Assembly (NCBI RefSeq): GCF_035989305.1
Contig: NZ_CP108514.1
Location: forward strand, 4,317,501-4,381,500
DNA: 64,000 nucleotides
Source: Streptomyces sp. NBC_01233
Lineage (GTDB): Bacteria; Actinomycetota; Actinomycetes; Streptomycetales; Streptomycetaceae
Direction of reading: 5' to 3'
Made by a program: the position numbers and the translations under genes
Notes under the pieces: generated by a model
Seen by the model: the letters and a program-made list of their open reading frames with translations, nothing else
Databases searched by the model: none
Told to the model about the DNA's origin: nothing
Shown: piece by piece, positions 27,055 to 48,938 of the stretch
Layout: every line of letters begins with the position of its first letter
Position numbering within the stretch: the first letter of the stretch is position 1

Positions 27055-27089
27055 CGCGAGCGGTAGGCCATGTCGGACTCGAACCGACA
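27055..27089 (-). repeat. Displaced 3' fragment of tRNA-Lys (outermost attachment-site remnant)
   Basis: 35 bases are identical to the first 35 bases of the 53-bp repeats at 36741 and 48857, covering the T arm and acceptor end of tRNA-Lys. After GAACCGACA the sequence diverges. This is what remains of an original chromosomal or earlier element end after integration into the tRNA gene. Confidence 0.8.
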
Positions 27090-27118
27090 CGATCAGCACG
27101 TGGGCGCTGCCCCTCAGC

Positions 27119-28240
27119 TCAGCGGCGGGACATGTAAAGGCCGAGGGCCCTGTGGAGGAGTCTGTTGAGCGGGAAGTCCCACTCGCCGAGGTATTCGGCG
27201 GCCTGGCCGCCGGTGCCGACCTTGAACCGGAGCAGGCCGAGCAGGTGGTTGGACTGATCCAGGGTGTCGGTGATGCCGCGCAGGTCGTAGACGCTCGCGC
27301 CCAGTCCGTGGGCGTCGGACATCATCCGCCACTGGATGGCGTTGTTCGGCTGGACGTCCCGCTTGCGGCTGGTGGAGGCCCCGTAGGAGTACCAGACGTG
27401 CTCACCAACGGTCAGCATCGTGGCCGCGGCCAGCACCTCGCCCTCGTGATGGGCCAGATACAGCCGCATCCGGTCGGCGTCTTCGGCCCGGAGCGCGGTC
27501 CACATGCGCTGAAAGTAGGCCAGCGGCCTGGGGATGAACCGGTCGCGTTCCGCGGTCTCCTTGTAGATCTCGTAGAAGGCGGGCAGGTCCTCGTAGCCGC
27601 CCTGGACGACCTCGAGGCCGGCCTTCTCGGCCTTCTTGACGTTGCGGCGCCACTGCTGGTTGAACCCGCGCTGAACCTCGTCCAACGACCGTCCCGCAAG
27701 CGGGACCTGGAAGACGTAGCGCGGCTGCCCCGCGCTGAACCCGTCCTCACCACCCACCTCGCCCTGCTGCCACCCCAAGCGGCGCAGCCGGTCGGCGACA
27801 TCGAAGGCCCGCGGCTCGCACGAGCTGGCCTCGACATCACGCAACCGTCCTGCCCGCGGGTCTGCAATGGCGTCCTTGACCGTTCCCGCATCCCAGCGGC
27901 GCACGATCACAGGCGGACCCATCTTCACCGAGAACGCGCCGCGGGTCTTGAGATGCGCCAGCATCGGCTCGAGCCACCGTTCAAGATCCGGGGCGTACCA
28001 GTCGATGACCGGGCCTTCGGGAAGGTAGGCGAGGTACCGCTTGAGCTTCGGCAGCGGCCGGAAGAGCACGAGCGCCGCCCCGACGATCCGGCCGGTCTCA
28101 TCGATCCATCCGAGGCTCTCCGCCCGCCAGTCCGGCTTCACATCCCCCCACGAGGGCACCTGCATGTGACTCGCGGAGGGCCGGCCCTTGATGAAGGCCA
28201 GATGCTCGTCACGGCTGATCGCTCTCAAGCGGAAGGTCAT
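27119..28240 (-). CDS. FemX/FemAB-type aminoacyltransferase (peptidoglycan bridge)
   Basis: 373 residues of the FemABX family, which adds the first amino acid (glycine in Streptomyces) of the interpeptide bridge to lipid II from aminoacyl-tRNA. Visible family segments are PSASHMQVPSWGDVK, YLAYLPEGPVIDW, FNQQWRRNVKKAEKAGLEV, and the C-terminal DLRGITDTLDQSNHLLGL with VGTGGQAAEYLGEWDFPLN. The ATG at 28240 has GAGGAG eight bases upstream. As I recall, the housekeeping Streptomyces femX lies elsewhere, so this may be an acquired paralogue that could change bridge composition or glycopeptide response. It ends 30 bases from the tRNA-Lys remnant. Confidence 0.85.
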   Translation of the reverse strand: MTFRLRAISRDEHLAFIKGRPSASHMQVPSWGDVKPDWRAESLGWIDETGRIVGAALVLFRPLPKLKRYLAYLPEGPVIDWYAPDLERWLEPMLAHLKTRGAFSVKMGPPVIVRRWDAGTVKDAIADPRAGRLRDVEASSCEPRAFDVADRLRRLGWQQGEVGGEDGFSAGQPRYVFQVPLAGRSLDEVQRGFNQQWRRNVKKAEKAGLEVVQGGYEDLPAFYEIYKETAERDRFIPRPLAYFQRMWTALRAEDADRMRLYLAHHEGEVLAAATMLTVGEHVWYSYGASTSRKRDVQPNNAIQWRMMSDAHGLGASVYDLRGITDTLDQSNHLLGLLRFKVGTGGQAAEYLGEWDFPLNRLLHRALGLYMSRR

Positions 28241-28427
28241 GCGAAGTGCTCCTCTGTCCGACGCGCCAGCCTACTTCGCAGACTTCACGCCCCGCCTCGC
28301 CGTGTGCACGCTGTCGTCGCATACGAGCCGGCACGAACCTTCCCGGCAAGATCATCAATCCTGTTCGACCTCAACACCGTTGCGTTAGGGATCTTGAGTC
28401 GTTGGCAACCCCCGCATGAGTAGCAGG

Positions 28428-28492
28428 AACGGGACTCCTGGTAGATCAACTTGTGCTGAAGCAAGGTGATCGTCGAGTCCAGGAGTCCCGTT
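28428..28492 (+). promoter_or_regulatory. Hairpin covering the transposase ribosome binding site and start codon (copy 2)
   Basis: Left arm 28428-28441 and right arm 28479-28492 are perfect 14-bp complements. An inner stem, 28444-28453 with 28462-28471, has one mismatch. AGGAG (28481-28485) and the TTG start (28491) lie in the right arm. It is identical to the structure in copy 1. Confidence 0.65.
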
Positions 28493-29900
28493 GCGGGAGA
28501 AGTCTGTCATCACGCGCACGATCGAGGTCGCTGGGGGTGTGTTCGCGCCGGGGCAGCTGGGTGAGCTGACGCAGACGGTGGACTTCGAACTGGTGGACGC
28601 GGTGCTTGAGGAGACCGGCACGGTCGAGCGGCGACTGCGGCTGCTGCCCTCGCGGGTGGTGGTGTACTTCGTCCTCGCGCTCGCACTGTTCGAGAACTGC
28701 TCCTACCGGGCGGTGTGGGGCAAACTGACCGCCTCGCTGACGAGTCTGGCCCTGGCCGTCCCGGCGGCTTCCTCGCTGTCGCGGGCGAGGCGGCGGATAG
28801 GGGCCGCCCCGCTACGGCGGCTGTTCGAGATCCTGGCCGGGCCCCTCGCTGTCCGCGGGCAGTCGGGCACGTTCTGGCGGGGCCTGCGGTGCGTGGCCGT
28901 CGACGGCACTCTCCTCCATGTCCCGGACGAGAAGACGCTCACCTGGAAGTACCCGAAACGGGCCGGTGACACGCTGGAGTTCGGCTACCCGCTGCTGCGG
29001 CTCGTCGTCCTGGTCGAGTGTGGCACCCGCGCCCTGCTCGCCGCCACCTTCGGACCCGAGAGTGACGGTGAACTCACCTACGCGAACCGCCTGTTGGGCG
29101 CTCTTGACGACACGATGCTCCTGCTGGCCGACGCCGGCTTCGATGCGGTGGAATTCCTCCGTGACATCCAGGGCAGCGGGGCACGATTCCTGATCCGCTC
29201 TTCCGCCCGACGCATCCCCACCCCCGCCGAGCACCTGGCCGACGGCTCCTACCTGGCCCGGATCGGCTACGGCGTCATTCCCGTCCTGATCACCGTCCGC
29301 GTCATCGAGGCCCACCTCACAGTCCGCCTGGACGACGGCACTGTCCGCCACGAGCAGTGGCGCCTGCTCACCAGCCTCCTCGACCCCGTCCGCTACCCCG
29401 CCGATGAAGTGGCCGAGCTCTATCACCGCAGGTGGCAGGTGGAAACCACCTACTTCTCGATCAAGGCGACCATCCTGGAGGGCCGCGTCCTGCGCTCGCG
29501 CACCCAGCCCGGCCTCGACCAGGAGGTCTACGCCCTGCTCACGACCTACCAGGCCCTCCTCCGCGCCGCCGCCGACGGCATCGAGACCCGCCCCGACCTC
29601 ACCATGAGCCGGATCAGCTTCACCGTCCTGATCCGCACCGCCGGTGACACCGTCATCAGCGCGACCGGAATCCTGCCCCCACTCGGCCCTGTCGACCGAG
29701 TCGGCGTGATCGGTCAGGCCGTCCTCGAAGCCCCGCTGCCGTCCCAACACAGGCAACGCATCAAAGCCCGCACCCGCAAGAACCCCACCAGCAAGTACGG
29801 CCCGAACGCCGGACAACAGCCCGTGACCAGCCAGAACTACAGCATCCAGACCACTATCACGTTCTTCGAGCACGGCCTCAACAGCCGCTCACGGCGCTAA
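28491..29900 (+). CDS. IS4-family DDE transposase (copy 2)
   Basis: 469 residues, with no difference from copy 1 that I can see. The catalytic positions are D in CVAVDGTLL, D in LLADAGFDAV and E in YHRRWQVETTYFSIK. It has a TTG start. Two intact identical copies imply recent activity in this genome. Confidence 0.93.
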   Translation: MREKSVITRTIEVAGGVFAPGQLGELTQTVDFELVDAVLEETGTVERRLRLLPSRVVVYFVLALALFENCSYRAVWGKLTASLTSLALAVPAASSLSRARRRIGAAPLRRLFEILAGPLAVRGQSGTFWRGLRCVAVDGTLLHVPDEKTLTWKYPKRAGDTLEFGYPLLRLVVLVECGTRALLAATFGPESDGELTYANRLLGALDDTMLLLADAGFDAVEFLRDIQGSGARFLIRSSARRIPTPAEHLADGSYLARIGYGVIPVLITVRVIEAHLTVRLDDGTVRHEQWRLLTSLLDPVRYPADEVAELYHRRWQVETTYFSIKATILEGRVLRSRTQPGLDQEVYALLTTYQALLRAAADGIETRPDLTMSRISFTVLIRTAGDTVISATGILPPLGPVDRVGVIGQAVLEAPLPSQHRQRIKARTRKNPTSKYGPNAGQQPVTSQNYSIQTTITFFEHGLNSRSRR

Positions 29901-30095: not shown

Positions 30096-30431
30096 CTAGC
30101 TGTGGCGTGAGGCGCGCAGGTCGGCCAGCAGTTCGGCCTGACCTTCCAGGACGCCTGAGAGGATGCCGCGGGCGACCCGCAACAGTTCGGCGATCTGGGG
30201 GTGGGTGAGCTTGTAGTACACGTTGGAGCCTTCGCGGCGGGTGACGACCAGGTTGGCCTTGCGCAAGACGGCCAGCTGCTGGGAGAGGCTTGCGGCCTCC
30301 ACTCCGACCTCGGGCAGCATCTCGGCGACCGCGTGTTCGCGCTCGGCCAGGAGTTCCAGGACGCGGATGCGGACCGGATGCCCGAGCGTTTTGAAGAACT
30401 CCGCCTTGAGCTGGTACAGCGGTGTGCTCAC
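30096..30431 (-). CDS. ArsR-family regulator 1, cysteine-free
   Basis: About 111 residues. The winged helix is clear (FFKTLGHPVRIRVLELLAE, AASLSQQLAVLRKANLVVTR, GSNVYYKLTHPQIAELL). It has no cysteine, so it is unlikely to sense a thiol-bound metal as classic ArsR does. The GTG at 30431 follows AGGGG and aligns the N-terminus with the paralogue at 33906 (TPLYQLKAEFF against VPLYQAKAEFF); an ATG at 30467 is the alternative. A TTGCA-N6-TGCAA operator lies about 100 bases upstream, suggesting autoregulation. Confidence 0.88.
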   Translation of the reverse strand: MSTPLYQLKAEFFKTLGHPVRIRVLELLAEREHAVAEMLPEVGVEAASLSQQLAVLRKANLVVTRREGSNVYYKLTHPQIAELLRVARGILSGVLEGQAELLADLRASRHS

Positions 30432-30528
30432 CTGAGTACCCCTGCCTTGACTGCCCATCTCATCCACCCGGAACCATTCGCCGAAGGGGCATCCTTGCGC
30501 CTCTCTTCACACCTTGTGACCTCCACAA

Positions 30529-30544
30529 TTGCAGATCCCTGCAA
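30529..30544. promoter_or_regulatory. ArsR-type operator 1 (TTGCA-N6-TGCAA)
   Basis: TTGCAGATCCCTGCAA lies upstream of arsR 1. The arms are perfect 5-bp inverted repeats. The same spacing and arms recur at 34345 and 35381, all next to genes of this block. Confidence 0.75.
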
Positions 30545-30629
30545 CTCCTGAGACCCGGCGGCCCGTCTTTGTGACGTTCGGAACGCACGGGGCGGGCCGA
30601 ACGCCCCCGGCCGTAACCGGCCCAGTGGG

Positions 30630-30851
30630 TCACGCCTTCTTCAGGAACTCGGTCCTCAGGACCAGCCCCTTGACCTTCTTCGTGTTGCACTCGACCTCGT
30701 CCGTCTTGGAGGTGAGACGGATGTTCTTGACCAGGGTTCCGCGCTTGAGGGTCTCGGAGGTCCCCTTGACCTTGAGGTCCTTGATCAGGGTGACCGAGTC
30801 TCCGTCGGCGAGCTGGGTGCCGTTGGAGTCCTTGACGATGATGTCGCTCAT
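30630..30851 (-). CDS. Small PhnA/YjdM C-terminal-type protein
   Basis: 73 residues resembling the C-terminal PhnA domain: IIVKDSNGTQLADGDSVTLI, then KDLKVKG, GTLVKNIRL, and KGLVLRTEFLKK. The full-length relatives have an N-terminal zinc ribbon that is absent here. The biochemical role is not established; the family name comes from an early misassociation with phosphonate use. It is the last gene of the minus-strand series that begins with arsR 2. Confidence 0.8.
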   Translation of the reverse strand: MSDIIVKDSNGTQLADGDSVTLIKDLKVKGTSETLKRGTLVKNIRLTSKTDEVECNTKKVKGLVLRTEFLKKA

Positions 30852-30904
30852 GGTGCCGGTGTCCTTGCCGTTCTCGTAGATCGTGCTGCTGCTGGTGTGG
30901 AGAT

Positions 30905-31315
30905 TCAGGTGAGGGCGGGAGCCGTGGGGTGTCGCGGGTCGGGCCAGTCGTCGGTGCTCCACTGCCGGATCTCGTCCTGTGCACCGTGCGCGGCGAGCGC
31001 GGCGGCGAGGTCGCAGTGGACGGTGACGGTCGGGCAGGTGGCGTCCGGGACGAGGGAGCCGTCCGCGGGGATCGCGGCGAGCTCCAGGCTCCGGCCGTGG
31101 CCGGCGAGGCGGCGGGCGGCCTGGGCGACGGCGATCTGTCCGCCTGCCGACCAGCCCAGCAGACCGGTCAGATCGAGGATGACCGGGCCAGTGCCCCGGG
31201 CGAGCGCCCACCCGATGGCGCCGGTGAACCGGTCCACGGCGTCCGCGCCGAGATACCCGGCCAGGGACAGCACGCCCAGGTCCTCGCGGGTCGTGTACCG
31301 CCATTCGATCGTCAT
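30905..31315 (-). CDS. STAS-domain anti-anti-sigma-like protein
   Basis: 136 residues. The STAS fold is suggested by LGVLSLAGYLGADAVDRFTG and GPVILDLTGLLGWSAGG. The Ser in LLGWSAGG is at the site phosphorylated in SpoIIAA/RsbV proteins. The next gene upstream is an HATPase kinase-like protein, its natural partner. The ATG at 31315 follows GAGGA by seven bases. Confidence 0.82.
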   Translation of the reverse strand: MTIEWRYTTREDLGVLSLAGYLGADAVDRFTGAIGWALARGTGPVILDLTGLLGWSAGGQIAVAQAARRLAGHGRSLELAAIPADGSLVPDATCPTVTVHCDLAAALAAHGAQDEIRQWSTDDWPDPRHPTAPALT

Positions 31316-31337
31316 CGTCCGTTCCTCGGTTCGCTCG

Positions 31338-31763
31338 TCACAGGGGGAGGGTGATCCAGATGGCCTTGCCGCGCCCATCCGCGTCCGGCCTCACAGCGGC
31401 GGTGCCGCCCAGCTCCATCGCCAGTTCGACCACCATGGCCAGGCCGCTGCCCGGGGCAGTGGCGAGCGCACCGAACAGGGCCGGCTGGTAGGGGTGGCGG
31501 TCGTGTACGGCGAACGCGAAGGCACCGGGCCCGTGCGCATAGGTGACCGTGATCGTCGGCGAGGACGCGGCGGCATGGCGGACGGCGTTGGTGACCAACT
31601 CGGCCAGGATCAGCAGCGCCGGGCCCGCGCTCGGATGCCGAAGGCCGACCCCACACTCCACCAGGACCAGCTCGGTGGTCTCGCGGGCGATACGGACGGC
31701 CGAGCCCGCGGCCGGTACGTCCAACACATGCCGGTAGGGCATCGTCTCGGCCCGGACACTCAC
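31338..31763 (-). CDS. HATPase / RsbW-like anti-sigma kinase 1
   Basis: 141 residues of the GHKL fold found in RsbW and SpoIIAB. The N-box ILAELVTNAVRHA and the G-boxes around PGSGLAMVVELA and GKAIWITLPL are visible. It could bind a sigma factor and phosphorylate the adjacent STAS protein. The start overlaps the end of the upstream flavin-barrel gene by four bases, so the two are translationally coupled. Confidence 0.87.
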   Translation of the reverse strand: MSVRAETMPYRHVLDVPAAGSAVRIARETTELVLVECGVGLRHPSAGPALLILAELVTNAVRHAAASSPTITVTYAHGPGAFAFAVHDRHPYQPALFGALATAPGSGLAMVVELAMELGGTAAVRPDADGRGKAIWITLPL

Positions 31764-32182
31764 CGGCCCGCCCCCGTCACGGTGCGGGCAAGGCGGAACC
31801 CGGACACCTGCTGCGGGTGCAGGCGCAGCAGGGTGTCGTGCGGGCCGTGGGCCCAGCCGGGCAGGGTGCGCCGGTAGTGGGCTGCCTCGTCGGGGTTGGT
31901 GATGACCTCCGCCGGGCCGTGGGCGCTGACGGTCCAGCCGGTGCCGGCCGGGGTGCGGATCTCATCGACCTGGTAGGTCAACAAGGCACGGCCGGGAATG
32001 GTGGCGGCCTGTACGGGGGCCCGGACGACCAGGCGGCCGTACTCCATCACGTGCGCGGCGGGGCGGACTACGGCCAGCTCGCGCTGGACGTAGACGAGGC
32101 GCCCTTGGGCGGAGCCTTCGAGGAGCCACAGGGCCTCGGTTCCGGAGACCTCGATCATGCGGCGGTCGGCGGGAGATGTCAT
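31760..32182 (-). CDS. Pyridoxamine 5'-phosphate oxidase-like split-barrel flavoprotein
   Basis: 140 residues resembling the PPOX/FMN- or F420-binding split barrel family (EALWLLEGSAQGRLVYV, VRAPVQAATIPGRALLTYQVDEI, GWTVSAHGPAEVI). Streptomyces have many such proteins near stress genes. The cofactor cannot be decided from the sequence. It overlaps the SulP gene upstream and the HATPase gene downstream by four bases each. Confidence 0.82.
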   Translation of the reverse strand: MTSPADRRMIEVSGTEALWLLEGSAQGRLVYVQRELAVVRPAAHVMEYGRLVVRAPVQAATIPGRALLTYQVDEIRTPAGTGWTVSAHGPAEVITNPDEAAHYRRTLPGWAHGPHDTLLRLHPQQVSGFRLARTVTGAGR

Positions 32183-33909
32183 CGTGTGGCCTTCCGGGTG
32201 CGGTGCGGTCGGTGCCTCCCGGGCAGCAGCCCTGCCTGCTCCAGGTGTTTGCGGGCCCCGGCGATCGCCTCCGGGGTGGTGGTGTACTCGCGTCCCTCGT
32301 GCCGGAGCAGGTCCAGGGCACCCACCGCGTCCAGGGCCTGGCGCTGCCCGGGCCGGATACCGGACGCCATGACGGCGATGCCCCGCCTGTTCAGCTTCTC
32401 CACGGCGTCTTTGAGGACGAGGGCACCGGTGGCGTCCATCGCCGTGATCCTCGACATGCGCAGGATCACCACCTTCACGTCGGCGACCTCGGACAGCTCC
32501 AGGAGGAAGCGGTGCGCGCCGGCGAAGAAGACCGGGCCGTCGATGCGGTACGCGACGATGTGCTCGGCCAGCAGCGCGTGCTCCTCATCGCTGTGCTCAC
32601 CGGGCAGGTCCGGGCGGAAATCGACCTGATCCATCCGTGCCTGGCTCGCGACCGCTTTCAGGGCAAGGGCTCCGGCGACGACGAGGCCGATGACGACGGC
32701 GTAGACGAGGTCGAGGACCAGAGTGGCGGCGGCGGTCAGGACCAGCACGACCGCGTCCGAGCGGGTCGCCTTCGCCATCGCCCGCAGCGAGCCGACCTCC
32801 ACCATCCGGATCGCCGTCGCCAACAGAACACCGGCCAAGGCAGCGAGGGGGATCTTCGAGACGAGGGGCGCGGCGGCGAACACGACCACCGCGAGCACCG
32901 CGGCGTGCGTGAGCGCAGCCAGGCGGGAGGAGGCGCCGGTTCGGACGTTCACCGCCGTACGGGCGATCGCGGCGGTGGCCGGGACGCCGCCGAACAGAGG
33001 GGCGGCCAGGTTGGCGATGCCCTGCCCGAACAGTTCCTTGTCCGGATCGTGCTTCTGCCCCACCGTCATCCCGTCCGCCACGGTGGCCGACAGCAGCGAC
33101 TCCAGCGCGGCGAGCGCCGCGACCGCAACCGCCGGGGCCAGCAGCGAGCCGAACGCCGACGCGTCCAGGAAGGCGAGGGAAGGCGCGGGAAGCCCGGAAG
33201 GCAGGTCACCGATCGGGGCCGCCGCCTCGAGATGGAAGAGCTGACCGATCACGGTCGCGGCGATCACCGCGACGATCGAGAACGGAATCGCCGGCTTCCA
33301 CCGAGCCCCGACCAGCATCACCGCGGCGACACCCACCGAGAGGCCGATCGCCGTCCAGTTCGGGAAGGCCACGAACTCCACGAGCGTATGCCAGGCAACG
33401 ATCAGGACCTTCTCGCCCTCGGGCTTGTCGACCCCAAGCGCGTTGGGTATCTGCTGGAGGCCGATCACGCACGCGATACCGAGGGTGAAGCCCTCCACCA
33501 CCGGCGCTGGCACGTACCGCATGTACTGCCCGGCCCGCAGCAGGGCGAGGCCGATCAGCAGAACCCCCGCCATCAGCCCCACCGTAAGGACGCCGCCGGG
33601 CCCGTACTGGGCGACGATCGGCACCAGGACCACCGTCATCGCACCCGTCGGACCGGACACCTGAAGGTTCGACCCGCCGAACACGGCCGCAAGGGCACCC
33701 GCCACAACCGCGGTGGCGAGGCCCGCCTCGGCACCCAGCCCGGAGGAGACGCCGAACCCGAGCGCCAGCGGCAGAGCCACGATCGCGACGGTCAGACCGG
33801 CCAGCAGGTCCCGGCGGGGGTTGCGGCCCATGACCGCGAAGTCGGCCCGGGCCGGCAGCAAGGGGCGGATCCGGCCGAGTACGGGCGCCAGGAAGGTGTT
33901 CACGGTCAC
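32179..33909 (-). CDS. SulP-family anion transporter with C-terminal STAS domain
   Basis: 576 residues. About 11-12 membrane segments span roughly 30-420, including the SulP signature LQVSGPTGAMTVVLVPIV, and a cytoplasmic STAS domain lies at about 440-550. SulP proteins move sulfate, bicarbonate or other anions with Na+ or H+. The nearby carbonic anhydrase makes bicarbonate a reasonable candidate substrate, by analogy with BicA and SulP-CA fusions, but sulfate cannot be excluded. It overlaps the upstream arsR 2 and downstream PPOX genes by four bases each. Confidence 0.92.
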   Translation of the reverse strand: MTVNTFLAPVLGRIRPLLPARADFAVMGRNPRRDLLAGLTVAIVALPLALGFGVSSGLGAEAGLATAVVAGALAAVFGGSNLQVSGPTGAMTVVLVPIVAQYGPGGVLTVGLMAGVLLIGLALLRAGQYMRYVPAPVVEGFTLGIACVIGLQQIPNALGVDKPEGEKVLIVAWHTLVEFVAFPNWTAIGLSVGVAAVMLVGARWKPAIPFSIVAVIAATVIGQLFHLEAAAPIGDLPSGLPAPSLAFLDASAFGSLLAPAVAVAALAALESLLSATVADGMTVGQKHDPDKELFGQGIANLAAPLFGGVPATAAIARTAVNVRTGASSRLAALTHAAVLAVVVFAAAPLVSKIPLAALAGVLLATAIRMVEVGSLRAMAKATRSDAVVLVLTAAATLVLDLVYAVVIGLVVAGALALKAVASQARMDQVDFRPDLPGEHSDEEHALLAEHIVAYRIDGPVFFAGAHRFLLELSEVADVKVVILRMSRITAMDATGALVLKDAVEKLNRRGIAVMASGIRPGQRQALDAVGALDLLRHEGREYTTTPEAIAGARKHLEQAGLLPGRHRPHRTRKATR

Positions 33910-34247
33910 GGCGCCGGGACCTCGGACTCGCGCAGTTCCTCAAGGAGCTCGCTCTGCCCGGTCAGCACCTCGTTCAGGATCCGCCGCGCCGCCCGCATCA
34001 GCTGTGCGACGTCACCGCCAGCCAGCTCGTACACCACGGTCGAGCCGTCACGCACCGAGGTGACGATCCCCGAGCGGCGCAGCACCGCGAGCTGCTGGGA
34101 CAAGGCGGAAGGCTCGACCTCGATCGCGGCCAGCAGGTCCCGCACCGGCATCGGACCGTCCTGCAACAGCTCCAGAACCCGTATCCGCACCGGGTGCCCG
34201 AGCATCCGGAAGAACTCGGCCTTGGCCTGATACAGCGGAACCGGCAC
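33906..34247 (-). CDS. ArsR-family regulator 2, cysteine-free, first gene of the SulP operon
   Basis: 113 residues, closely similar to the regulator at 30096 (shared AEFF-x-x-LGHPVRIRVLELL and ALSQQLAVLR). It has no cysteine. The GTG at 34247 follows GAAGGG. It is followed by sulP with a four-base overlap, so its level is tied to the operon. A perfect 8-bp-arm inverted repeat around TTGCA-N6-TGCAA lies about 100 bases upstream. Confidence 0.9.
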   Translation of the reverse strand: MPVPLYQAKAEFFRMLGHPVRIRVLELLQDGPMPVRDLLAAIEVEPSALSQQLAVLRRSGIVTSVRDGSTVVYELAGGDVAQLMRAARRILNEVLTGQSELLEELRESEVPAP

Positions 34248-34344
34248 GATCGCGCACCCTTCTCATCGCCCCGGGCGCCGGGGCGAACGGCTGGTGCTGT
34301 GCCTGCGGCTACCTACGGACACAGCCCTCACAGCATCTATGAAA

Positions 34345-34360
34345 TTGCAGACTTTTGCAA
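34345..34360. promoter_or_regulatory. ArsR-type operator 2 (strongest copy)
   Basis: TTGCAGACTTTTGCAA, extended to 8-bp arms (AAATTGCA at 34342-34349 and TGCAATTT at 34356-34363). It lies in the 420-base gap between arsR 2 (minus strand) and the carbonic anhydrase gene (plus strand), so it may control both directions. The rest of the gap holds a hairpin at 34412 and no gene. Confidence 0.8.
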
Positions 34361-34411
34361 TTTGTGGATTCTGCGACCGTTCTCCGATCGCGGACTGTAG
34401 CGTCAGAACGT

Positions 34412-34443
34412 GGGCCCCGCCGCATCCCCCGTCGGCGGGGCCC
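34412..34443. terminator. GC-rich hairpin between operator 2 and the carbonic anhydrase gene
   Basis: GGGCCCCGCCG pairs with its complement at 34433-34443 (11 bp). It could end transcripts that leave operator 2 on the plus strand, so the carbonic anhydrase may need its own promoter. Confidence 0.5.
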
Positions 34444-34667
34444 CCTTCGTGTCGACCGAAGACTGCTCCCGCCGCGGATGCCGGCACGATCGACCCCATC
34501 GGCCGATCACCCCGTGAAGCCGCGCCTTCCCGTGGTGCGCCGTCCACGGGTACGTCCGACTGTTGCTCAAGACTTCCCCAAGGCCGCGCCGCGCCTGAAG
34601 CGGCATGCGCCACCCCGCGCCGGGATGCGCCTGGTCTGTCCCCGCATGACCGTCGATACCGAACGTC

Positions 34668-35338
34668 ATGGCCCCCCTGGGGCGGCGCCGGTTCATCCGG
34701 GCCGCGCTGACCGGAGCGGCGGCCTTGGGCGTCGGGCCGGCAGCCGGTTCCCCCACGGCCACACCCGAGTCCGCCCTGCGGGAACCGGCGGCGGGGAATC
34801 GGCGCTGGCGGACGTCCCGCGAGCGCCATCCCGACCAGACGCCGGCCATGCGGCAGACCTTGGTCTCCGGCCGGCATCCCTTCGCCGTCGTCCTGGGCTG
34901 CGTCGATTCCCGCGTTCCCCCGGAACTGGTCTTCGATCAGGGCCCGGGTGATCTGCTGACGGTGCGCTCAGCGGGCGCGGTCCCGGACGAGGCGGTGCTC
35001 GCGAGCATCGCCTACGGGGTCCTGGAGTTGGGCATCCCGCTGGTCGTGGTCCTGGGGCACCAGTCGTGCGGGGCCGTTGCCGCCGTCGTCCATGCCGGCG
35101 AGGGCGGCGCGCAGCTGCCCGGTCACATGCAGTACCTGGCCGATCAGATCCGCCCGGCGACCGACCGCACGCTGAAGGGGTGGCGCGCGTGGACGCGGCA
35201 ATCACCGCGAACGTGCGGCCGGTGCGGTCGCGGCCGGCCGCGGAACCCGACCCGGCCACCAGGGTCAGGCACACGGAACTCGCTGTCATCGGAGCCCGGT
35301 ACGAGCTCACCGGTCAACAAGTGCACCCAATCCACTGA
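34668..35338 (+). pseudogene. Tat-exported beta-carbonic anhydrase, frameshifted near the C-terminus
   Basis: The N-terminus has a twin-arginine signal (RRRFIRAALTGAAALG). The beta-CA zinc and active-site motifs are present: LGCVDSRVPPE (Cys, Asp, Arg) and GHQSCGAVAAVV (His, Cys). After TLKG at about 35176 the open frame turns to nonsense. The expected C-terminus (DAAITANVRPV ... ELAVIGARYELTGQQV) continues in another frame to a stop at 35336-35338. One missing base in the G-run 35177-35180 explains this. Without the shift the enzyme would be about 223 residues and act outside the membrane converting CO2 and bicarbonate. A sequencing error is possible. Confidence 0.7.
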
Positions 35339-35380
35339 TGGCCCACTGCACGGCCTCCGGCAAGCCCCCAGGAGCTAAAC

Positions 35381-35396
35381 TTGCAGAGTTATGCAA
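35381..35396. promoter_or_regulatory. ArsR-type operator 3 (TTGCA-N6-TGCAA)
   Basis: TTGCAGAGTTATGCAA is followed by TTT. It lies just upstream of a plus-strand operon of four small genes. Confidence 0.75.
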
Positions 35397-35433
35397 TTTA
35401 CTAGTTCTGTATTCTTTGGACGGGGGTTGCGGT

Positions 35434-35622
35434 GTGGCCGGATTCGCGGAAGCGGCGCTGGAACGGGTCCGGGTGGCGCGGGCTCGTCTTGCGGCTGCGC
35501 GGGAGGCTGACGATGCCGTCGAGGAGGCGCAGGCCGCCGACGAGCTGGAGGACGCGCTTCGGGTGGCCCGCGATCACGGCGTGGCCACCAACGACGACGG
35601 GAACGGCCGGTGCGCCGAATGA
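35434..35622 (+). CDS. Small helical, coiled-coil-like protein
   Basis: 62 residues, rich in Ala, Glu and Arg (LERVRVARARLAAAREADDAVEEAQ), predicted to be one long helix or helical hairpin. I recognise similar short conserved proteins in Streptomyces but no function. The GTG at 35434 is preceded by GGGGG. It is the first gene after operator 3. Confidence 0.6.
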   Translation: MAGFAEAALERVRVARARLAAAREADDAVEEAQAADELEDALRVARDHGVATNDDGNGRCAE

Positions 35623-35650
35623 CGGCGCCCTCTCGGCCGGGTGCACGGTA

Positions 35651-36100
35651 GTGGGCCGGCATCCCAGCAGGCAGCCCGCAGCGCCGCAGGCGCGCAAGGA
35701 CGCGTGGACGGTGCCATTGGTGCCGGGTTCGGTGCGGGCCGTGCGGGAGCGTACGGAGCGGTCGCTGACGCTGTTCGGCCTGGAGAGCGCCTCTTCCCTC
35801 TTCGGGGCCGCGCTTCTGGTCGTCAGCGAGCTCGTCGCCAACGCCGTGCGGCACGCCGAACAGTCACCGGACGCCGAGGTCACCCTCCACATGACCGACC
35901 ACATGCTGGTGGTCGGCGTCGGAGACCTCGACCCTCGCCCCATGACTCTGGCCGACGCCGACCGGGCATCGGGGCAGGGGCTGCGCACGGTGGCCGACCT
36001 GGCGCGCTCCTTCGGTGGCGACGTCCGCGTCGAGCCCGCCGCCGGGGGACGCGGCAAGACGGTCGTGGTCCGCTTCATCCTGCCGGAAGGAACACCGTGA
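35651..36100 (+). CDS. HATPase / RsbW-like anti-sigma kinase 2
   Basis: About 149 residues with GHKL ATPase motifs: LLVVSELVANAVRHAEQS (N-box), VVGVGDLDPRP, GQGLRTVADLARSFG and GRGKTVVVRF. It is related in fold to the HATPase at 31338, so the block carries two candidate anti-sigma kinases. The GTG at 35651 is a plausible start; the frame stays open further upstream. It is coupled to the next gene by a GTGA overlap. Confidence 0.83.
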   Translation: MGRHPSRQPAAPQARKDAWTVPLVPGSVRAVRERTERSLTLFGLESASSLFGAALLVVSELVANAVRHAEQSPDAEVTLHMTDHMLVVGVGDLDPRPMTLADADRASGQGLRTVADLARSFGGDVRVEPAAGGRGKTVVVRFILPEGTP

Positions 36101-36303
36101 CCAGCAGTGACAGACAGGACGCTCAGCTGTACCAGGTCATGTACCTCGGTACGGGCGCCGAGCCCGAAACCCGCACGGTGGTGGCCGAGGAGGTCGCGGC
36201 CGTCATCGAACAGGCAGGTCGTCACGGCATGAAGGTCCTCGTCCGCCCGTGCGTGCACCCCCAGGATGAACCCGGCCCGAGAAAGGGAGTCCAGCTGTCA
36301 TGA
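36097..36303 (+). CDS. Small hypothetical protein in the HATPase operon
   Basis: 68 residues. GTG at 36097 overlaps the preceding stop (GTGA), with GGAAGGA upstream. The sequence has a short beta/alpha pattern (YQVMYLGTGAEPETRTVVAE, HGMKVLVRPC) and no known motif that I recognise. Its stop overlaps the next start (ATGA). Confidence 0.6.
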   Translation: MTSSDRQDAQLYQVMYLGTGAEPETRTVVAEEVAAVIEQAGRHGMKVLVRPCVHPQDEPGPRKGVQLS

Positions 36304-36461
36304 CGGACGACAAGCCCGAGAAGACCTCTTCGGCGGCGGATCACGAGAGGTGGCTGGGGAGGGGCGTCGCGCTACGCGCCTTCTTCTACATCTTCGGCAC
36401 GCACTTGTTCGCAGGGTTCGTGTGGCTGCTGTTCTACCTGGGCCAGCACGCCCAGAAGTGA
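36300..36461 (+). CDS. Small single-helix membrane protein (DUF6126-like)
   Basis: 53 residues, with a charged N-terminal half and one hydrophobic segment (AFFYIFGTHLFAGFVWLLFY). The FATHLFAGF-type core reminds me of the DUF6126 family of Streptomyces. The ATG at 36300 overlaps the previous stop. It could anchor or signal for the HATPase operon; no function is known. Confidence 0.65.
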   Translation: MTDDKPEKTSSAADHERWLGRGVALRAFFYIFGTHLFAGFVWLLFYLGQHAQK

Positions 36462-36740: not shown

Positions 36741-36793
36741 CGCGAGCGGTAGGCCATGTCGGACTCGAACCGACAACCAACGGATTAAAAGTC
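36741..36793 (-). repeat. Attachment site, left end of the integrated element (53-bp direct repeat)
   Basis: It is identical over 53 bp to 48857-48909. It covers the 3' half of tRNA-Lys from the anticodon loop to the acceptor end plus flanking bases. The remaining 5' half of the tRNA is absent here. Confidence 0.9.
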
Positions 36794-46729: not shown

Positions 46730-47233
46730 GTGGAGAATGAAGAGGGCCGGCAGGCAGACACCATGTGGGGCTACGGCTACGAGCCCGAGAAAGCGCTAGG
46801 CGAAGCCCTGCGCTCACTCCGCACGGCACGCGGCATGTCGCAGGAAGACGTGGCGACGATGATGAGCCGGAGCGGTTTCTCCTGGCGTCAGACAACGGTC
46901 GCGAAGACGGAGGGCGGTTCACGCCCCGTCCGCGTCAACGAGGCTGCCGCTCTGGCCCTGTGCTTCGGCGTCTCCGTTAACGAGCTGCTCGGCAACCAGG
47001 CGGACAGCCCGGAACAGTCGCTGATCGAATCGACGTACCGGGTGTCGTTCTCGCTCTACCTGAGCACTCGACTCCGCACCGAGGAAGCGCTCCGGCGGAA
47101 GCAAGCCGCAGAACGCGAGTACGAGGAGTCCCTCGCTCAGCTCCGCGAGACGAAGCAGTCCTACGAAGAGGCAAGCCGGGCATTCGAGGAGGCATTCCTC
47201 GAACCGTCCGGCGAGGGGGAGGAGAAGGATTGA
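46730..47233 (+). CDS. XRE-family regulator preceding integrase
   Basis: 167 residues. An N-terminal XRE helix-turn-helix (LGEALRSLRTARGMSQEDVA ... WRQTTVAKTEGG) is followed by a long charged helix, probably a coiled coil (RKQAAEREYEESLAQLRETK). The GTG at 46730 is the likely start. Its stop overlaps the integrase TTG start. It probably controls the divergent xis-rep operon and integrase. Confidence 0.83.
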   Translation: MENEEGRQADTMWGYGYEPEKALGEALRSLRTARGMSQEDVATMMSRSGFSWRQTTVAKTEGGSRPVRVNEAAALALCFGVSVNELLGNQADSPEQSLIESTYRVSFSLYLSTRLRTEEALRRKQAAEREYEESLAQLRETKQSYEEASRAFEEAFLEPSGEGEEKD

Positions 47234-48927
47234 CCGGCTCGACCTTCAAACGGTGCGCCTGCCGCAACCCGGAGACGGGCAAGCAGTACGGGCAGTCGTG
47301 CCCCAAGCTCACACAGAAGCGCCACGGCCTGTGGAACGTCCGCCAAGAGCTGCCGAACGACAAGGACGGCAAGCGCCGCACCTTCCGCCGCTCGGGCTAC
47401 GCCACGAAGAACGAGGCACAGGGCGACCTCGACCGGCTGCGCGCACTGCTCGGCATCCCAGGTGACGACGACCCCGACGGCCGCCTGCTCATCGGTGACC
47501 TGCTCGAAACGGTCGCCTCCAAGAAGGAGGCCGTACCCGACTACGAGGAGACGCAGCGTCGGTTCCGCACCGGCCAGTCCCTCACCGCCCGGCTGACCGT
47601 CGGCGACTGGCTCGACCAGTGGCTCGCTGGCAAGCGGCGCCGCGACTCCACCCTCGACGGATACGAGTCGCACATCCGCGTCCACTTGAAGCCGCACATC
47701 GGGCAGCACCGCCTCGACCGGCTGAACGTGGGCCACCTGGTTGAGTTGTTCGACGCGATCGAGGAGCACAACGAGGAGATCCTCGTCGAGAACGCCAACC
47801 GCCGGGCGCAGGTCGCGCTGAGCAAGCCGACCACACCGGGGCGACCGCTCCCCGCCGAGCGAGAGCGGATCGCCGCAGAGCGCGCAAAGCTCGCCGAGAT
47901 GAAGCCGTTCCGGAAGGTCACCGGGCCCGCGACCCGACAGCGCGTTCGGGCGACCTTGCGTGCGGCCCTGAACGATGCCATCGCGCAGCAGCTCATCACC
48001 TTCAACCCGGCATCACATGTCGAACTGGAGACCGGTAAGCGGCCCAAGGCACTCGTCTGGACCGAGGAGCGCATCGCCCAGTGGAAGCGGACGGGAGACA
48101 AGCCGTCGCCCGTCATGGTCTGGACGCCCGAGCAGACGGGCGCGTTCCTCGACCGCGCGGCGAAGCACCGCCTCTACGCGCTGTACCACCTGATCGCCTT
48201 CCGTGGCCTGCGCCGAGGCGAGGCATGCGGCCAGCAGTGGACCGAGACCGACCTCGGGGCGGGGCTGCTCACCGTCGCCACTCAGCTCGTACAGCGCGGC
48301 TGGAAGGTCGAGGAGTCCGCGCCCAAGACGGACAGCGGCGAGCGCGTGGTCGCCCTCGACTCCGAGACGGTGAAGGTGCTCGCGAAGCACCGCAAGCGGC
48401 AGATGCGGGAGCGCCTCGCGTGGGGCGAGGCGTACGTCGACACCGGCCGCGTGTTCACGCAGGAAAACGGCGAGTGGCTCCACCCGGCATGGGTGACCGA
48501 GCAGTTCCGGCGGCTGGCTGCCGAGGCTGGTCTGCCCCCGATCCGGCTGCACGACCTGCGCCACGGCGCGGCAACCCTCGCCCTCGCGGCCGGCGCCGAG
48601 ATGAAGGTCGTACAGGAGATGCTCGGCCACTCCTCGATCACGATCACGTCGGACACGTACACCAGCGTCCTGCCCGAGGTCGCGCGAAAGGCTGCCGAGG
48701 CCGCGGTAAGGCTGGTCCCGCGGCAGGCCGTTCGTACCGCCGGGCTCACCTCGGGCTCACATCAGGTCACCGGACGCCCCGGGCAAGGCAAAGCGCCCCA
48801 CCCGAAGAAGTCGGATGGGGCGCTAAGGCGCAGGTCAGAGGAAGGTTCCTCCGCCTCGCGAGCGGTAGGCCATGTCGGACTCGAACCGACAACCAACGGA
48901 TTAAAAGTCCGCTGCTCTGCCAATTGA
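47230..48927 (+). CDS. int: Tyrosine recombinase (integrase) for the tRNA-Lys site
   Basis: 565 residues. An N-terminal arm-binding region with cysteines (CACRNPETGKQYGQSCP) is followed by a core-binding domain (VGDWLDQWLAGKRRRDSTLD) and a catalytic domain with R in FRGLRRGEACG, HxLR in LHDLRHGAATLA, H in LGHSS and the nucleophile Y in SDTYTSVLP. An unusual insert of about 60 residues sits between the core-binding and catalytic parts. The last ~25 codons lie in the tRNA-Lys gene and its flank, so integration restores both. The start is TTG, overlapping the XRE gene. Confidence 0.92.
   Translation: MTGSTFKRCACRNPETGKQYGQSCPKLTQKRHGLWNVRQELPNDKDGKRRTFRRSGYATKNEAQGDLDRLRALLGIPGDDDPDGRLLIGDLLETVASKKEAVPDYEETQRRFRTGQSLTARLTVGDWLDQWLAGKRRRDSTLDGYESHIRVHLKPHIGQHRLDRLNVGHLVELFDAIEEHNEEILVENANRRAQVALSKPTTPGRPLPAERERIAAERAKLAEMKPFRKVTGPATRQRVRATLRAALNDAIAQQLITFNPASHVELETGKRPKALVWTEERIAQWKRTGDKPSPVMVWTPEQTGAFLDRAAKHRLYALYHLIAFRGLRRGEACGQQWTETDLGAGLLTVATQLVQRGWKVEESAPKTDSGERVVALDSETVKVLAKHRKRQMRERLAWGEAYVDTGRVFTQENGEWLHPAWVTEQFRRLAAEAGLPPIRLHDLRHGAATLALAAGAEMKVVQEMLGHSSITITSDTYTSVLPEVARKAAEAAVRLVPRQAVRTAGLTSGSHQVTGRPGQGKAPHPKKSDGALRRRSEEGSSASRAVGHVGLEPTTNGLKVRCSAN
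48792..48824 (-). terminator. Terminator after tRNA-Lys
   Basis: AGCGCCCCACCCGA pairs with TCGGATGGGGCGCT with one mismatch. It lies inside the integrase reading frame downstream of the tRNA on the minus strand. Confidence 0.75.
48857..48909 (-). repeat. Attachment site, right end of the integrated element (53-bp direct repeat)
   Basis: A perfect copy of 36741-36793 that forms the 3' half of the intact tRNA-Lys gene. Confidence 0.9.
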
Positions 48928-48938
48928 GCTAATGGCCC
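48866..48938 (-). tRNA. tRNA-Lys (TTT)
   Basis: A complete 73-base cloverleaf with anticodon loop CTTTTAA. The 3' half is supplied by the integrated element. CCA is not encoded. It is a typical tyrosine-recombinase target. Confidence 0.95.

Follow-up and report, generated by a model that had tools for sequence, protein, structure and literature searches.

Within a stretch of 64,000 nucleotides from Streptomyces sp. NBC_01233 (contig NZ_CP108514.1, positions 4,317,501 to 4,381,500; "the window", with coordinates counted from its first letter), the inverted repeat TTGCA-N6-TGCAA occurs before two arsR genes, arsR1 and arsR2, and before a third operon that has no arsR gene of its own. Judging from sequence comparison, the three sites are probably operators of cysteine-free ArsR proteins resembling Rv0081 of Mycobacterium tuberculosis, with the third operon controlled in trans and the entire gene set carried as island cargo.

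The exact repeat begins at 30529, 34345 and 35381, precisely as stated in a preliminary description of the window; 0.01 copies are expected from shuffling and none of 100 shuffles reached three. The start TTGCAGA on the plus strand, common to all three, had also been described correctly, though it says little because the downstream genes face both directions. Phylogenetic footprinting revealed a longer operator form, AATTGC-N8-GCAATT. In this 20-bp form, operator 1 (AATTGCAGATCCCTGCAACT, 30527..30546) lies 5' of arsR1, operator 2 (AATTGCAGACTTTTGCAATT, 34343..34362) lies 5' of arsR2-sulP with a divergent carbonic anhydrase gene opposite, and operator 3 (ACTTGCAGAGTTATGCAATT, 35379..35398) lies 5' of the third operon. 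With start codons of our own choice, the 20-bp operator stands 95 bp from the GTG codons of both arsR1 (30431) and arsR2 (34247) and 35 bp from that of the small gene opening the third operon (35434). A promoter position, as claimed for the sites, recurs in relatives of ArsR2 and in most of those of ArsR1.

In the 10.3-Mb genome the TTGCA-N6-TGCAA core occurs at six places vs. two for a reversed control pattern. The three additional core sites (C1:566028, 570538 and 7318122) have no AATT flanks and were set aside as background, since the reversed control likewise yields two; two of them lie near what by eye appear to be a group II intron and a recombinase. At most one mismatch to AATTGC-N8-GCAATT is found genome-wide only at the three sites of the window, so that the many equal sites elsewhere that would have spoken against the proposed regulon were not encountered. 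Two mismatches are found at 26 further places, the reversed control giving 12 with up to two. L192 and L193 carry a second TTGC-type operator beside arsR2, shortly past operator 2, which in L192 stands before the PhnA gene.

Conservation of the operator was assessed in 238 distinct arsR genes, each taken with 330 bp of upstream sequence, drawn from 79 contig-scan loci (among the best 80 matches), 29 further loci, 79 fetched stretches (L132-L210), the organism's own genomic loci and the window. Genes were chosen by an N-terminal pattern and duplicates by protein plus upstream sequence were removed; a tblastn recount gave 290 places before duplicate removal. An operator scoring at least 10.2 was present within 330 bp upstream of all 169 ArsR2/3-type genes and of 43 of the 69 ArsR1-type genes. 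A score of at least 10 was reached in 212/238 upstream regions vs. 2/238 shuffles and 1/236 downstream stretches. Because the score was derived from the first loci, the split into earlier and later loci matters: among loci fetched after the motif had been defined (L132-L210), which overlap the first set in some genomes and from which only identical gene-plus-promoter copies were dropped, the operator was found before 60/60 ArsR2/3-type and 18/34 ArsR1-type genes. The recount added six arsR genes missed by the pattern, all with a site of at least 11.8, while three with less than 330 bp upstream were left unscored. A TAGATG-like box follows the ArsR2/3 operators at a fixed offset (A in 96% and T in 93% of 169), with TAG at one single offset in 82 of them, and may represent a -10 element adjoining the operator. 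Taken as a family, these comparisons support the three sites as conserved operators of a cysteine-free ArsR subfamily.

Operators of ArsR2/3-type genes fall into TTGC/TTGC (97), TTGA/TTGA (65) and hybrid (7) types, and those of ArsR1-type genes are TTGC/TTGC in 40 of 43 cases. With regard to trans control, the third operon is the informative case. Our set holds 35 distinct third operons with a recognisable gene for a 62-aa protein and a downstream partner, other places having been dropped. The 22 that contain their own arsR have TTGA-type (19) or hybrid (3) sites and never a TTGC-type site, whereas all 13 without arsR are TTGC-type (Fisher 7e-10, the rows being related). A TTGCA-type site exactly where the operon's own arsR is absent favours control by ArsR1 and ArsR2 in trans and supports, without proving, the placement of all three promoters under both resident ArsR proteins; the cross-regulation suggested in the preliminary description is upheld to this extent, by comparison only. 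The three hybrids (L025, L202 and L269) group, with weak support (88) in a small tree, with the window's clade, three TTGA-type rows and L152.

A mechanism consistent with these data would place ArsR dimers on the inverted repeat, where they cover the core promoter and keep transcription repressed, and would have them released by a non-thiol signal, most likely redox state or low oxygen as for Rv0081; redox or oxygen sensing by such proteins in Streptomyces is suggested here by analogy. In the window's clade ArsR1 and ArsR2 would read operators that alike use TTGCAG-type half-sites. The predicted regulon comprises arsR1, arsR2-sulP-PPOX-HATPase-STAS-phnA (PPOX, pyridoxamine-phosphate-oxidase-like) and the third operon, small protein-HATPase-p68-DUF6126. 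If the latter is held by ArsR1 and ArsR2, we propose that the three operons therefore open together. Where a relative's third operon has retained an arsR, its sites are TTGAA-type, and the hybrid sites resemble an intermediate, the direction of change being our reading. As a serious possibility rather than the probable course of events, the TTGAA site of a dedicated repressor may have passed through a hybrid, with the repressor still present, before becoming a TTGCA site that two paralogues encoded nearby recognise, the repressor then being gone. The gene set itself came in on a tRNA-Lys island, as its cargo.

Several observations weigh against this interpretation. The operator is absent before 26 of 69 ArsR1-type genes, and ArsR1-type operators are followed by a GAGGTC-like box (A in 100% of 43), not by TAGATG. 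A promoter scan at the operators of the window yielded no sigma-70-like site. Operators of ArsR1 and ArsR2 differ on average by 3.4 of 16 positions in nine clade loci vs. 4.3 in 31 other loci (p 0.03), a small gain in likeness computed from rows that are not independent. The third-operon pattern reflects few events, with three changes on a weak tree, one of them forced by starred branches. Moreover, the Rv0081 site at Rv3334 is described as a 22-bp palindrome with a different sequence and a further 10 bp (PMC6177252), and the several gel-shift sites given for Rv0081 in PMC4757040 are short and unlike our motif, one being GATGCAACGTGCAT.

The strongest competing explanation, which we regard as unlikely but worth retaining, is that the two paralogues are insulated, ArsR1 acting on site 1 only and ArsR2 on site 2 only, with site 3 bound by ArsR2 alone, and that the sites resemble each other through common descent of the operators, not through shared control. 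It would fit the recognition helices of the two proteins, which differ (AASLSQQL vs. PSALSQQL), and the half-sites outside the window's clade, which differ in their inner letters: there ArsR1 operators mostly read TTGCTAA (44 of 62) and ArsR2 operators TTGCGAA (26 of 62) or TTGCAAA (23 of 62). Within the clade, however, ArsR1 half-sites are TTGCAGA (9 of 18) or TTGCAGG (7 of 18), and TTGCAGA is also the commonest ArsR2 half-site (12 of 18). Residue 48 of the recognition helix (ArsR2 numbering) offers a lead only as to how a half-site might be chosen. Among ArsR2/3 proteins it is mostly A, S or G with TTGC-type and N or S with TTGA-type sites (N in 2/97 vs. 30/65, A in 43/97 vs. 2/65, S in 27 vs. 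33). As a rule this code was rejected: N48 occurs together with TTGC half-sites in L218 (score 10.4), in L219 (12.2) and, at a sub-threshold site, in L242 (9.4), and in a tree built without the helix only one of six independent pairs is placed by starred branches (sign test, p 1).

Less probable still is the notion that site 3 is a non-functional relic of a lost arsR. An arsR gene does lie inside this operon in many relatives, and the broken frame of the adjoining carbonic anhydrase gene indicates that the locus is partly decaying. A relic should nevertheless have kept its TTGAA half-site, whereas every one of the arsR-less operons is TTGC-type, and the 20-bp site is unchanged in eight of ten loci of the window's clade.

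The ArsR proteins themselves (arsR1, 30096..30431, minus strand; arsR2, 33906..34247, minus strand) share 54% identity over 98 residues. Both belong to the ArsR/SmtB family (PF01022, HTH_5, 36 and 46.9 bits, cut-off 22, the ArsR1 match being made on a longer frame), and Rv0081 (PDB 6jmi) is the best solved match of both (ArsR1, 1e-32; ArsR2, 1.8e-26). Neither contains cysteine, in accordance with the preliminary description, and a thiol metal site is thereby excluded in both; cysteine occurs in 2/228 of the distinct ArsR sequences examined. The alpha3 cysteine or alpha5 histidine pair of metal sensors was not found in either sequence. With no cysteine and one histidine (His18), ArsR2 can form neither a thiol nor a two-histidine site within one chain; the case against a histidine site is weaker for ArsR1, which has four (His 18, 33, 77 and 110). 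A classical metal-sensor regulon, with metal bound via histidines and acidic residues and SulP carrying a linked oxyanion, is the least credible alternative and very improbable: both proteins exceed the cut-off of the HTH_metalloreg subfamily (NF033788, 82.4 and 79.9, cut-off 55) and ArsR1 offers the said histidines, but the ligand inventory of ArsR2 speaks against it, as do scores far under the cut-offs for the equivalog models of named sensors.

Contrary to the preliminary description, which regarded them as close paralogues, ArsR1 and ArsR2 appear to be members of two separate sets and not recent duplicates, as judged from a quick, poorly resolved tree of few columns (98 rows, 111 columns). 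The ArsR2/3 set (57 rows, starred 98), here termed SulP-associated, is separated from the rows that include ArsR1; this protein belongs to starred sets of 30 and of 41 rows in which the NuoB-linked rows are found. The picture of two ArsR proteins holds in that both are present; it is incomplete in that a third paralogue, 81% identical to ArsR2, ArsR3, is encoded elsewhere in the genome (C1:9916785) behind a different operator: the only TTGAARN4YTTCAA site of the genome (C1:9916632) lies in its own promoter. Names for the genes linked to the ArsR1 set are ours: PF01058, PF00361 and PF00146 proteins are presumed to be NuoB-, antiporter- and HycD-like, respectively. A NuoB-like gene follows an ArsR1-type gene in 9/79 contig-scan loci according to protein clustering, and L046 is a tenth locus with such a gene, ArsR1 not being recognised there; in some of the NuoB-linked ArsR1 loci antiporter-like and HycD-like genes come next. 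In a phylum-wide sample, 49/396 genomes gave a match at 1e-18, and 44 loci from it contained a SulP match in 16 cases and a NuoB- or antiporter-like match in 14, the weaker antiporter matches possibly being ordinary complex I genes. In L139 and L092, ArsR-bearing operons of the third type lie near antiporter- or HycD-like genes, in L139 also near a roadblock-like gene, a neighbourhood hinting at a wider shared regulon.

On the minus strand, arsR2, sulP, the PPOX gene and a HATPase gene follow each other with overlapping frames, then come the STAS gene, phnA and finally arsR1. The products are a SulP anion transporter with a STAS domain (32179..33909; PF00916, PF01740), the PPOX protein (31760..32182; PF12900), a HATPase resembling anti-sigma kinases (31338..31763; profile match), a STAS-like protein (30905..31318; match slightly under the Pfam cut-off, start codon approximate) and a 73-aa phnA/yjdM domain protein (30630..30851; PF03831). 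No zinc ribbon match was obtained for the latter, while the 117-aa copy of L033 has one. The plus strand encodes the beta-carbonic anhydrase frame (34668..35378), followed by the 62-aa protein (35434..35622; no Pfam match), a second HATPase (35651..36100; profile match partly on the longer frame 35432-36100), a 68-aa protein found in the window's clade (36097..36303) and a 53-aa DUF6126 protein (36300..36461; PF19621, 69.6 bits, cut-off 25). The carbonic anhydrase gene had rightly been located by site 2, but in this genome the reading frame is interrupted after roughly residue 171 and matches only profile positions 1-100 of 156. Broken frames also occur in L018 and L199; those of L192-L195 are open to the family's usual end, and the plasmid locus L268 has a gene of 245 codons.

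That the regulon is acquired, as proposed earlier, is supported by its surroundings, which make it part of a tRNA-Lys island. The gap between tRNA-Lys and tRNA-Met measures about 250 bp in G005 (L266), 4 kb in G015 (L267) and 24 kb in the window; no tRNA-Met was found in the fetched stretch of the four other genomes compared. Repeats of the tRNA-Lys 3' end, all on the minus strand, form att copy 1 (27056..27089, a 3' end fragment), att copy 2 (36747..36793, a 3' part) and att copy 3 (48863..48909, in the intact tRNA-Lys gene at 48864-48938). Positions 24683-48863 constitute an integration island of about 24 kb with at least two att-flanked units, the tRNA genes being adjacent in G005. Between att copies 1 and 2, which flank the ArsR cluster, there are also a FemAB gene and an IS4-type transposase gene (28491..29900, plus strand), the latter on the arsR1 side where some relatives have NuoB-, antiporter- or HycD-like genes. 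No integrase was detected among the open reading frames (ORFs) tested between these copies, the only one being the tyrosine integrase of the neighbouring element, between att copies 2 and 3 (47230..48927, plus strand; PF00589). Cargo between att copies common to a neighbouring integrative element and without an integrase of its own is known as a cis-mobilizable element (CIME), and the ORFs examined show this layout of an att-flanked cluster, a third att copy and an integrase only in the neighbour. Hallmarks of actinomycete integrative and conjugative elements are a tyrosine integrase, a replication protein and an FtsK-like transfer protein; the neighbouring element has PF00589 and Prim-Pol (PF09250) matches, and an FtsK domain in 0/11 ORFs tested (36.8-48.9 kb).

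Close relatives carry the cluster at other genome positions, e.g., 0.19 Mb (G074) and 0.40 Mb (G012), and related arsR genes were found on 29 of 72,556 plasmid records, seven of them from Streptomyces; the two inspected are both linear. The exact att core was not found in the loci of any other clade member, and the att origin is therefore established in this genome alone. The FemAB-type gene block (27091-28302), whose homology begins immediately after att copy 1, is 93% identical to L193:11317-12524, beside the same ArsR cluster. In the window the block of carbonic anhydrase and third operon lies past arsR2, in L193 before arsR1; simple circular permutation was rejected in favour of rearrangement because the FemAB gene is not where a circular order would put it.

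The operator family is real and conserved, and autorepression by ArsR is ordinary in kind; what is unusual is a promoter whose site fits the neighbours' repressors in every sampled case that lacks its own arsR. As the operator is readable in 212/238 promoters and exists in two half-site types with natural hybrids, its specificity and rewiring can be tested with short DNA probes in harmless Streptomyces. If operator conversion is true, the Rv0081-like subfamily would preserve in nature the successive steps by which regulation is rewired, carried on mobile islands and linear plasmids. The likely targets of these cysteine-free ArsR proteins, namely SulP, PPOX and anti-sigma-like genes plus hydrogenase-like genes in some relatives, offer a handle on what the proteins sense.

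Among known systems, metal sensors of the SmtB/CzrA type are ArsR family members and solved relatives of the window's proteins. Their operators are TGAA-N6-TTCA-like; ArsR2 differs in having no metal-ligand set and both window proteins in having no cysteine. The aligned part of Rv0081 is likewise free of cysteine, and an inverted-repeat operator in the own promoter appears to be a shared trait. Rv0081 is reported to be autorepressed via an inverted repeat and to lack a defined metal site (PMC6177252); it is co-controlled by DevR and MprA (PMC5484546). A table of the Rv0081-Rv0088 locus gives the order Rv0081, two oxidoreductases, hycD (PMC4564863), with which the order PF01058, PF00361, PF00146 after the ArsR1 relatives of L020 and L077 may be compared. 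Unlike these and other relatives, the window gives no NuoB- or antiporter-like match and has the IS4 transposase where formate-hydrogenlyase-like genes would follow ArsR1, and unlike the Rv0081 locus it unites two ArsR proteins and a SulP operon in one set; Rv0081-like genes of L220-L222 differ from it by TGA-type sites upstream. Rv2034 is also an ArsR regulator tied to hypoxia and autorepressed through a palindrome, but its repeat is CCGTAAGT-N4 (PMC3338718), and it falls into cluster 2 of a sequence similarity network in which Rv0081 belongs to cluster 3, a group termed largely uncharacterized (PMC10509353). At the level of search results, no study of the window's locus or of a cluster like L268 was found among papers on ArsR with SulP and Streptomyces, a NolR search returned nothing and a term search of the OsdR paper gave no occurrence of ArsR or Rv0081. 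A close counterpart is an annotated plasmid cluster of S. nojiriensis (NZ_CP107888.1, L268). It differs in an open, annotated carbonic anhydrase gene, in a third operon convergent with arsR1 and not past arsR2, and in a fourth operator and two more arsR genes nearby, but it shares the order arsR-sulP-PPOX-ATPase-STAS-phnA-arsR, a DUF6126 operon without arsR and TTGC-type operators in the three matching positions.

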